A stretch of DNA of 64,000 bases. It comes from Bartonella bacilliformis Ver097 (lineage in GTDB: Bacteria > Pseudomonadota > Alphaproteobacteria > Rhizobiales > Rhizobiaceae). The DNA lies in the NCBI RefSeq assembly GCF_000709795.1, contig NZ_KL503805.1:1-64000 (forward strand), in the 5' to 3' direction. The position numbers were made by a program, and so were the translations under genes. Below, one piece after another: positions 13,712 to 25,434 of this stretch. Within the stretch, counting starts at the first letter, position 1. Each line of letters begins with the position of its first letter. Under the pieces are notes generated by a model. That model worked only from the letters and a program-made list of their open reading frames with translations, did no database searches and was not told the origin of the DNA.

Positions 13712-16700
13712 TTAATTCAATGTAATACTTACTCCTGCACCTATACCCCAATGGCCTCCAGCAGTAGTCGCAGAAAAATTAGAGTGGATCCTTCCGTCTT
13801 CAGATGTATAACCCGTACCCAAAGCAAATGCGGATTGACTGCGCCACATACCACTTCCAAATGCAAAACTTAATCTTCCAGGTGTATCATTATAACGCAA
13901 GTTAGACACTGCCAAACCAATTGCTGCAGCCTGTCTAGCCTCTTTGCGTGCACCTTCAATCCCATAACTTAAGGCCTCAAATTTCATATCTGTATAGCCC
14001 TTAGCCTGAGAAACAGCATCGTCGATGGCATCAACAACAATATTCTTTATTTTGCCATCAGTATATTTTTTTGCATCATTGAGAACAAGTTTCATCTGTT
14101 CCTGAGTATAATCATGCAGCTGACCACCGTTAACTGCTTCTTGTGATCCTTTTTCAATTTTACCATCAGCAACATTGTCAATAGTTACAGGTTTACCAGA
14201 ATCTCCACCTTGTAAAACAACTTTATTAGTCTTTTTGCCATTCTCATCTCTTTGATAGCTAACAGCTCCATCGGCAAAATGGTTAACCGCATTTTCAATA
14301 CTATCAACCCTATCCCCCATATCAATAACTGAGTTATTAATATCAATAATCGTATTTCCAATCTTATCAACCTGTTTACTAACATCATTTACTTTATTTT
14401 CAACGTTAGTAACACGCTCATTAGTTTCCCAAAGCTGACCACCATTGACAGCATCTCCTGAACCTTGCGCGATTTGACCATCGGCTACATTAACAATCTT
14501 ACCGGGCTTACCGTCATGACTAGCATCATAAGCTCCTTTATCCTTGTTCCAACCTAAAGAATCTGACTCTGCCTTATTTTGATCTACCTTGTTTTCAACT
14601 TCCTGAAGGCGATCATTCATGCCAGACATACTCTCATTCACACCACCAAAAGCATCAGAAACATTGTTATAGGCCTTCTCACTAGAGGCACCATTAACAT
14701 CGAAGTGAGAAACCTCGTAAGTAGGAGCTGTCCATTTTCCATTATTATATCCGGCACCACCGCCAAAATAATGAGCAAATATATCGCTTATAGTATAAAT
14801 CTGGCCAAAGTGTCTGGAAATCTCATTCTGAATATTATCAAGAGAATCATTAACAGCAGAAAAAGCAGAGCCAACATTATTATATTGCTTTCCTTCAATA
14901 GTGTAAGTTGGTGCTTTACCACTACTTATGTCTGCACCACCGCCGAAATATTGCGATACGTTTGTATGAGTTTCATCAACACGATGATTTAAATTATGAA
15001 CCTCTTCATTAGTTTCCCAAAGCTGTGCACCATTAATAGCTTCAGTTGATTCTTCTGTGACTTTACCACCTGAAATACCAGAAATAGTCCGCCTTACACC
15101 ATCTTTATTCAAGATATTAATTTCAGTGCTACTATTTCCTGCACCAATGGTGATACGACCATTGTCATCTTCATTTTCTCCTTGCTGAATAAGGCCACTT
15201 CCTTTTATTACCTCTTCTTTTACCTTGTTTAACTGTGCAACATTAACGGCATCACCGTCTAAAACACCATCTGCTAATCCTGTTAGCTTTTTATCTCCAG
15301 CATTAATACCACCAGCAGTTACTGATGGACCATTCTTACAGGCAGTACCATCATTACAACCTTTAATCACCAAACCAGCATTACTTAAGCTGCTCAATCC
15401 TGTTGTTATGCGACCAACTTCAATATGCTCAGCCAAATCAAAAGTTACCGTATCACCTGTCCTTACAATACTCAGATTAGGATTAGCCCACTTGGGATTT
15501 TGAACTGAAAAATCTAAACCATTTTCACCTACAGACATAGCATTCTCACCGTTAATACTCAGCATCCAACCTTTGTTTACCGTATCTCTTAACGCTTTCA
15601 GCTGTGCAACATTAACGGCATCACCGTCTAAAACACCATCTGCTAATCCTGTTAGCTTTTTATCTCCAGCATTAATACCACCAGCAGTTACTGATGGACC
15701 ATTCTTACAGGCAGTACCATCATTACAACCTTTAATCACCAAACCAGCATTACTTAAGCTGCTCAATCCTGTTGTTATGCGACCAACTTCAATATGCTCA
15801 GCCAAATCAAAAGTTAGCTTGTTTTTGTTATCTTTTGTTATAACAAGATTACTACTTCCAACTGAAAAATCTGCGCCATCTGCACCAACAGGCGTGGCAT
15901 CTGCACCATTAACAGTAAGCATCCAACCTTTGTCTACCGTTTCTTTTAATGCTTTTAACTGTGAAAAATTAACAGCATCACCGTCTAAAACACCATCTGC
16001 AACCCCTGTAAGTGTTTTATCTCCAGCGTTAATACCACCAGCAGTTACTGATGGACCATTCTTACAAGCAGTACCATCATTACAACCTTTAATCACCAAA
16101 CCAGCATTACTTAAGCTGCTCAATCCTGTTGTTATGCGACCAACTTCAATATGCTCAGCCAAATTAAATGTTACCGTATCACCTGTCCTTACAATACTCA
16201 GATTAGGATTAGCCCACTTGGGATTTTGAACTGAAAAATCTAAACCATTTTCACCTACAGACATAGCATTCTCACCGTTAATACTCAGCATCCAACCTTT
16301 GTTTACCGTATCTCTTAACGCTTTCAGCTGTGCAACATTAACGGCATCGGTCATTTCACTACCAGCTGAAACTCCTGTAATCTGTCGTGTAACACCATTA
16401 TTAACATCACCAATGCTAACTGCACCCCTTGTACTCACCCATACGTGATCACTACTCTTTGTCATAGTATTATTAGTCGCAGGATTATAACCAGAAACGT
16501 TATACTCGGTACTAGCAATGGATGCAGTACCCAAAGCAACACCAGTCTCAACAATTACATGTGCACTTGCACCAATAGCAACCCCAGCACTTCCGCCTTG
16601 CCTAACGACAGCTCCTCTGCCCAAAGCAACACCAGCTTCATCACGCACCTGCGCACTTAGCCCAATAGCAACCGCCTCTTTAGAATTTTCTGAAGCATAA

Positions 16701-23724: not shown

Positions 23725-24032
23725 AACTCACCAAGATAAGATTCGCATATAAAAAGCAAATATTGTGAAAATAACACAACTCTTAAAAGAAGATTTGATT
23801 GTTACGATATTTTCTGAAAAGTAGTTCATTTTTACTACTCGCTGAATATTCTTCAATTCTTTTACCAATAACAAAGTAACCAACCACAACCAATTGTTCC
23901 AAAGCTATTAAAGATTATCTAATCATTTTAATCAATCAAAATGACAATAATTCCTTTTATCTTTAATATTTCTTTAAGACTTCCATTCAAAATGCCCCCT
24001 ATTTTTGAAGCTTTTGGTGCTCTTTAATTGTA
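23725..24032. other. Intergenic region downstream of miaA
   Basis: AT-rich and without a usable frame. In other Hyphomicrobiales ilvI and ilvH may follow miaA; they are not present here. Confidence 0.4.
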
Positions 24033-24904
24033 TTAAGAGATGATTTTCCATTCTTCATCCAATTGGTGACGAAACCACGTCATCTGCCTTTTTGCATATT
24101 GTCTGGTTCGAGTTTTAGCGACTTCAATAGCATTCTCAAAATTTCTACATCCGTTTAAGTAATCCGTAAATTCGAGTACACCAATAGCTTTCATCGCTGG
24201 TGATAAAGGAGAAATTGTAAGCTGCTTCATAAGCTCTACCTCTTCTAAAGCTCCTTTTTCAACCATATGAGTAAATCGCTCATTAATACGCTCATATAGT
24301 AATTGACGTGGAGGAAGGAGAAGAATTCGTTCTAAACAGTCTTGTGCAATCAAAGATTTTTTTTTTTACTTTGCCACCAACTTAGCTTCTTGCCAGTTGC
24401 CTCATACACTTCTAAAGCACGTACAATACGTTGACCATCTTGTGAAGCAATACGCTCAGCTACAACAGCATCAACCTGTAATAATTCACGATAAAGACTT
24501 TCAGCTCCTTCTTTAGAAAGCCTCATCCGCCATTTTTGCCGTAAAATATCTGGAATATCAGGAATCTCTGAAATTTTTCCTAAAAGTGCACGAAAATACA
24601 ATCCTGTTCCACCAACAAAAATGAGTTGTTTTAACTTGATCGTACTTAAAAGCTTAGTCACATCACACAACCACTGTCCTACTGAATAGCTAAGAGTGGG
24701 ACTTACATAACCATAAAGATAGTGCGGAACAATCATAGTATCAGCGTTTGTTGGCCTTGCCGTTAAAATATTCAACACATCATACACTTGCATTGAGTCA
24801 GCATTGATAATAACTGCATTCCTTTCCTGCGCCATTTTCAATGCAAGCTTTGATTTTCCACTTGCAGTTGGACCAGCTATCAATGTAATCATTCTGTGTG
24901 TCAT
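24033..24904 (-). pseudogene. miaA: tRNA dimethylallyltransferase, frameshifted at an A11 tract
   Basis: MiaA adds a dimethylallyl group to A37 of tRNAs that read UNN codons. The first frame (24350-24904) carries the P-loop GPTASGKSKLAL, INADSMQVY, FVGGTGLYFRALL and DGQRIVRALEVYEATGK up to SWWQSKKKNL and a stop. The second (24033-24353) continues with LIAQDCLERILLLPPRQLLY, MKAIGV..FTDYLNG and TRQYAKRQMTWFRHQ, the rest of the family. The break falls exactly in a run of 11 A on the coding strand (24357-24367). With 12 A, or 9 A, the product would be one protein of about 290 residues, the normal length. Everything else is intact, so this may be a recent mutation, a sequencing error, or a gene kept active by slippage at the homopolymer. 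Confidence 0.9.
24357..24367 (-). repeat. A11 homopolymer at the miaA frameshift
   Basis: Eleven T on the plus strand, eleven A on the coding strand, lying in a run of Lys codons. A tract of this length is prone to replication and transcription slippage. Confidence 0.9.
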
Positions 24905-25434
24905 GAACGAAAACCTTTATGACTATCAATCAACAAGTTATTGCAGCATTCATTACTGAACCTAAAGCATAATATAAAGGATAGAGCTCTTCTCCTCAAA
25001 TTGCCCTTTGAGAAGTATTTATGCACTCCATGGCAGCTTTTTACTGCAACGTTTCTCTATCTTTTGAGAAAATAAAAAAGCAATATAATGAATTTAAATC
25101 TGAAAATATATTGAAGTACAACCTTTTAATATTGTTGCAAGAACAAACATCCAACACAAAAATTCTTACTTCAAAATATAAACCCTACCACATTGACCAC
25201 TTAGCTGATGAAGCAGAGTTGCGTGAAGATATGCCCTTATATCAAGATATCAAAGCATTAGCCGTGAATAGTAACATTCTCTTGCAATGAACACTGCATA
25301 AACACATTTTCTTATCAAGCTGATACTTGAAACGTAAAAATACTAAAAACATCACCTTAACATAACAAAAATACATTAATAAAACCCATAAAAATTCTAT
25401 TTCATAGAAATAAAAGAAAGATTTATTAAAAAAA
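24905..25434. other. Spacer between miaA and degP
   Basis: The region contains only the doubtful small frame at 25021-25290. In Brucella and relatives serB is expected near here; I do not recognise any serB residue patterns. A short AT-rich hairpin (TTCTAT/ATAGAA, 25395-25409) lies just downstream of degP. Confidence 0.4.
25021..25290 (+). CDS. Doubtful small hypothetical protein
   Basis: An 89-residue frame, mostly polar, with Lys/Glu-rich helices (FEKIKKQYNEF) and an acidic stretch (DHLADEAELREDMPLYQDI). It has no signal peptide, no known domain and only a weak ribosome-binding site (GAGAAG, 11 bases upstream). The composition is protein-like, so it could be real or the relic of a lost gene. 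Confidence 0.3.
   Translation: MHSMAAFYCNVSLSFEKIKKQYNEFKSENILKYNLLILLQEQTSNTKILTSKYKPYHIDHLADEAELREDMPLYQDIKALAVNSNILLQ

Follow-up and report, generated by a model that had tools for sequence, protein, structure and literature searches.

A miaA gene of Bartonella bacilliformis Ver097 split at an A11 tract that is conserved in a diverged genome, and its possible expression through slippage

Introduction

Poly-A frameshifts that are rescued or used by slippage are already known from several bacteria. In Buchnera and Blochmannia, otherwise conserved genes are broken at a long A tract, as is the miaA gene considered here, and their rescue by transcription slippage has been proposed (PMC5009743, PMC5574713). 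Insertions made during transcription rise exponentially with run length, and those located in runs all fall in A or T runs, while the same study reported no case of a frame restored by a transcription indel (PMC5574713). Programmed transcriptional slippage is represented by Thermus dnaX, Shigella mxiE and Deinococcus IS elements, in which two frames are joined through an A tract of roughly 8 bases or longer, a further likeness to miaA; in Shigella mxiE, slippage gives the longer of the products (PMC1088944). At the level of translation, robust sliding of Escherichia coli ribosomes has been described in vitro on A11, with little sliding on A9 or A10, in a setting where three lysines are encoded (PMC4363877), and the miaA tract, with its three lysine codons within 11 A's, belongs to the same sequence class.

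Such poly-A frameshifts are easily dismissed as sequencing errors or pseudogenes. Another point of reference is the programmed dnaX-type -1 ribosomal frameshifting of E. coli, which shares with miaA both the -1 direction and the slippery heptamer A AAA AAA. The gene analyzed here lies in a stretch of 64,000 nucleotides (hereafter, the window; GC content along it 31-41%) at the start of contig 4 of the Ver097 genome (G000; 1.39 Mb, six contigs). The recF gene is open in G000, whereas a premature stop in the recF of Ver097 is described in PMC4864206. Neither miaA nor Bartonella occurs in the GeneTack frameshift paper (PMC3711429) or in the first 300,000 of the 475,107 characters of a recoding review (PMC5009743), and a search of titles and abstract openings (with the subscription literature mostly outside its reach) returned no published miaA split or Bartonella slippage. 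The miaA/Bartonella instance is therefore apparently new, in the sense that we found no report of it. In our assessment, it is reasonably probable that this is a working gene carrying a fixed A11 frameshift, from which slippage of the polymerase and/or the ribosome gives full-length MiaA at a reduced level.

Results

Structure of the split gene

The split of miaA was confirmed as two open frames on the minus strand at 24033-24904, the second of which is in the -1 frame relative to the first. The features to which we refer are as follows.

24350-24904, minus strand: N-terminal miaA open frame of 184 aa, with ATG at 24904 and TGA at 24350-24352; TIGR00174 match of 158.4 bits; dN/dS 0.20 versus a second genome, G074
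24033-24353, minus strand: C-terminal miaA open frame, in the -1 frame, of 106 aa counted from TTG, with TAA ending at 24033; dN/dS 0.22 versus G074
24357-24367, minus strand: A11 tract of the coding strand, at which the frame must change; flanked by stops in both frames and identical in G074
24366-24368, minus strand: TAA, a stop in the -1 frame that overlaps the tract start and sets the upstream limit of the transition
24350-24353, minus strand: TTGA overlap of a possible TTG start and the TGA stop of the N half, a possible reinitiation site; best Shine-Dalgarno-like match before TTG 3/6

Since a -1-frame stop overlaps the start of the tract and a zero-frame stop follows 4 bases past it, the switch of frame has to occur within the tract or those 4 bases, in agreement with the initial annotation, which had named the A11 tract as the only thing that puts the two halves out of frame. 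The longest run of any other kind in this gene, whatever the base, is 5.

Against TIGR00174 (288 positions, cut-off 148.65 bits), the N half covers positions 3-180 and exceeds the cut-off by itself at 158.4 bits, and the C half covers 191-282 at 79.3 bits; against PF01715 (243 positions), the two halves cover 1-146 and 156-243, respectively. Both parts together thus match the curated MiaA model over nearly its whole length, which points to membership of the MiaA family. The N half carries the P-loop, GPTASGKS, and its best four named matches are Bartonella records, with Candidatus B. washoeensis first. A family search of the G000 genome gave two matches, which are the two halves, and no second MiaA gene.

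The same split in a second genome and a survey of the genus

The miaA gene of G074 has the identical A11 tract and the identical -1 offset, although the two genomes have diverged by about 6% (94.3% nucleotide identity over 33 kb) and their miaA genes differ at 36 of 872 positions. Among the 71 genomes searched, miaA was present in 70 (the exception, with no miaA match, being G017, which is 85% complete), in 65 of them as one match in a single frame. The five frame-broken copies belong to G000, G074, G033, G024 and G089. Intact members of the genus have longest A runs of 4-7 around the tract site.

In G033, an A8 occupies the same place with the same -1 offset (G033:C1, about 1650665-1650680), miaA being intact in its relative G061; G033 also has the highest ratio of C-half to N-half distance (1st of 67). 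Since A8 is shorter than the lengths with robust sliding, G033 may carry a recent break or an error. In G024 and G089 the gene is broken elsewhere, and one-base gaps relative to close relatives occur nearby. Such gaps do not by themselves point to assembly error, as the comparison of G033 with G061 contains one-base gaps as well; the breaks in G024 and G089 may be either errors or real.

The A11 tract among other tracts

Eleven is the longest A/T run length in G000 as well as in G074. The former genome has three A11 tracts, two of which are not A11 in G074; the sole A11 of G074 (which has 56 A/T tracts of length 9 and a single one each of lengths 10 and 11) is that of miaA. Within the aligned stretch, tracts were identical between the two genomes in 63 of 87 cases at length 6, 19 of 23 at length 7, 1 of 4 at length 8 and 0 of 1 at length 9. 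Besides the miaA tract, the 31 kb of the comparison thus contain five A/T tracts of length 8 or 9 (a small sample), and just one of them is identical in G074. The constancy of the miaA tract is a point against the slippage reading, because a pure A tract should be hypermutable; by our own estimate, if substitutions alone are considered, the chance that the tract would stay intact over this divergence is not very low. At 15201-16412 of the window, alignments overlap on the same part of G074, indicative of an internally repeated gene or a repeat array.

Tract constancy also bears on DNA-level phase variation, by which replication slippage would change the tract length and switch MiaA on and off, with both genomes being in the same off state. 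Such a mechanism could draw on the expected hypermutability of a tract that is the longest of its kind in both genomes, and it would also account for selection on both halves, as expected of a gene that is on part of the time. Nevertheless, a toggling tract should tend to differ between genomes, and here its length is equal in both (a sample of two). The on-off switching suggested in the initial annotation has thus gained no pointer from the comparison of these two genomes, and we rate phase variation as unlikely, albeit the first in rank among the alternatives.

We also asked whether Bartonella genes are commonly split at A11 tracts and saw no such tendency among 64 sampled tracts of at least 11 bases (60 chosen among the matches listed, the three of G000 and the one of G074), with homology checked for few of them. 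When 240 open bases were required on both sides, 60 of the 64 fell in neither class, 1 lay inside one frame and 3 at a two-frame junction (two of these being miaA); with 120 open bases on both sides, 4 lay inside one frame and 4 at a two-frame junction. Another gene in which two frames meet at an A11 is L206 (G086:C2, 827418-827428); its N part matches Hydrolase_4 (PF12146), and its C part shows a weak match (E 0.008) to lysophospholipase L2. The in-frame counterparts of the miaA case, with A11 inside a single open frame, are represented by L141 (G000:C1, 266095-266105; shikimate-dehydrogenase-like) and L193 (G005:C11, 77033-77043; dephospho-CoA-kinase-like), both named by eye.

Selection on both halves

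In the comparison of G000 with G074, the N half carries 12 synonymous and 9 non-synonymous changes (dN/dS 0.20), and the C half carries 8 and 7, respectively (dN/dS 0.22); the median dN/dS of neighboring ORFs is 0.18 (range 0.04 to 0.54). This median derives from 18 frame-clean ORFs of at least 100 codons (both halves included) out of 23 compared in the aligned stretch, five ORFs with a frame-breaking gap being left out. When the substitutions were shuffled over sites of the same base, the N half showed 9 non-synonymous codons vs. 14.7 expected (P 0.0037), and the C half 7 vs. 10.9 expected (P 0.015, from only 15 substitutions); with the other genome as reference, the respective P values were 0.0012 and 0.036. 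Taken together, these values argue for purifying selection on both halves of miaA, with modest support for the C half, and, along with the TIGR00174 and PF01715 matches, they bear out the initial description of two MiaA halves that are both present and conserved.

Besides the two terminal stops, neither half contains a further stop in G000 or G074. The usual marks of a pseudogene (relaxed selection, further disabling changes) were not found in the comparison of these two genomes, which a very recent loss would escape. Of 30 C-half residues that do not vary elsewhere in the genus, 29 are kept (the one broken residue gives a rank of sixth of 69, tied with others). The ratio of C-half to N-half distance ranks 23rd of 67 in G000 and 7th of 67 in G074. 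In the protein tree, the stem of the G000-G074 pair measures 0.241 for the C half vs. 0.054 for the N half, and this long C-half stem on the ancestral branch of the pair could reflect an earlier spell of weaker constraint. MiaB, the enzyme that acts on the product of MiaA, was above its family cut-off in all 61 genomes searched, and miaB encodes 458 aa in both G000 and G074 with a dN/dS of 0.149. Given the selection on both miaA halves and the constrained miaB, the MiaA-MiaB pathway looks alive as judged from sequence, and the split gene may provide MiaA activity (i6A37 in tRNA).

These data bear on a recent loss of miaA, that is, on a single inactivation not long before the two lineages separated, or on two inactivations since then, at the slipperiest site of the gene. 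With 5 of 70 miaA genes frame-broken, and the break of G033 at the same site, that site may be a mutational hot spot; gene loss does occur in small reduced genomes, and the two genomes compared could each have acquired the frameshift in parallel and much more recently. Set against this are the dN/dS values of both halves, which resemble those of neighboring ORFs, the absence of a second inactivating change from both genomes, and a miaB gene that is still constrained. We consider a recent loss unlikely and place it second among the alternatives.

RNA signals and protein structure at the site

The slippery heptamer A AAA AAA stands in the zero frame, as in dnaX-type -1 frameshifting. No downstream stem-loop of the kind that stimulates frameshifting was found in a pseudoknot-free fold of 80 bases (z +2.2, with 200 of 200 shuffles folding at least as well), and no Rfam match was found in 23800-25200. 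The best Shine-Dalgarno-like match upstream of the tract is 4/6. A hairpin presenting the tract in its loop through pairing of the CAAAG and CTTTG flanks was rejected: the fold does show this pairing, at a stability no better than that of shuffles (z 0.24).

Two tryptophan codons directly precede the tract. These are read by a tRNA of the class that MiaA modifies. On the improbable set-point reading discussed below, the product of MiaA could, by way of them, feed back on its own frame choice; however, two tryptophan codons are common in the genus and, hence, not special to the split genes.

An intact relative, L051, was modeled with AlphaFold2 (mean pLDDT 84.7, from an input of 8 sequences, two of which were N parts only); here, the tract region is a predicted loop between helix 174-178 and strand 191-196. 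On the solved MiaA structure 2zm5, the alignment of the N half ends at residue 183, and that of the C half begins at residue 206. Judging by the model, extra or missing lysines in this loop should do little harm, and the N half alone would lack a strand and the C-terminal helices.

A two-chain enzyme, in which termination-reinitiation at the TTGA overlap would yield a separate C half that assembles with the N half, appears very improbable. The overlap of the TTG start and the TGA stop is identical in G074, and the -1 frame of G033 has TTG and GTG codons just before its A8, so that a separate start would be possible there; nevertheless, the Shine-Dalgarno-like match before TTG is at best 3/6, G033 is devoid of the TTGA overlap, and, according to the model, a strand and the last helices would sit on the other chain.

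Just as improbable, and no longer the main alternative for which the initial annotation took it, is a homopolymer sequencing or assembly error: several technologies have difficulty with A11, and earlier Bartonella assemblies contained homopolymer frameshifts that needed correction (PMC3610622), but the same A11 is present in two assemblies whose miaA genes have diverged at 36 of 872 positions, an agreement that makes a plain error unlikely, and the frame-breaking gaps seen in 5 of 23 ORFs are all located no more than about 16 bases from an end of the listed ORF.

Discussion

Overall, the preferred explanation of the split miaA remains a fixed A11 frameshift bridged by slippage. The locus combines two conserved frames that meet at a long A tract (about 9 bases or more) with a tract and an offset that are kept between diverged genomes (two genomes only), both frames being under apparent purifying selection. 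According to the proposed mechanism, RNA polymerase and/or the ribosome would slip on A11 in a fraction of passages, joining the two frames and yielding full-length MiaA in an amount below normal; the remaining product would be the truncated 184-aa N half, which is probably inactive. Since a downstream structure for a dnaX-type signal was not found, and two processes are known to act on such tracts, unstimulated slippage is favored over a stimulated frameshift. The slippage on the tract that was put forward initially can therefore be upheld as plausible; actual read-through in this organism, at whatever level and whether in transcription or in translation, is an inference.

In a more elaborate version of the slippage reading, A11 would be maintained as a set-point by which MiaA is throttled. 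The tract length would sit at the threshold of ribosome sliding, and the output of MiaA, with a possible feedback through the two tryptophan codons, would follow the state of the translation apparatus. We regard this version as improbable, more so than either phase variation or a recent loss.

What matters beyond this locus is that two diverged genomes share a poly-A frameshift in a housekeeping tRNA-modification gene, with both of its halves apparently selected. If read-through is confirmed, the gene would show, as an experiment of nature, how far a bacterium can depend on slippage, slippage would be setting the MiaA level of a pathogen, and calling such genes dead would be wrong.

A side-by-side comparison with the known systems reveals differences from each of them. 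Unlike the frameshifted genes of Buchnera and Blochmannia, the present case is hosted by Bartonella, in a window of 31-41% GC, and its tract has the same length in two genomes that have diverged. In contrast to the programmed transcriptional slippage systems, miaA, a candidate for such slippage, is a housekeeping tRNA-modification gene. The dnaX type of -1 frameshifting differs in that no downstream structure was found for miaA, its best upstream Shine-Dalgarno-like match being 4/6. Finally, whereas ribosome sliding on A11 lowers the output in the system described in PMC4363877, for the split miaA any output of the full-length enzyme by this route would need sliding.
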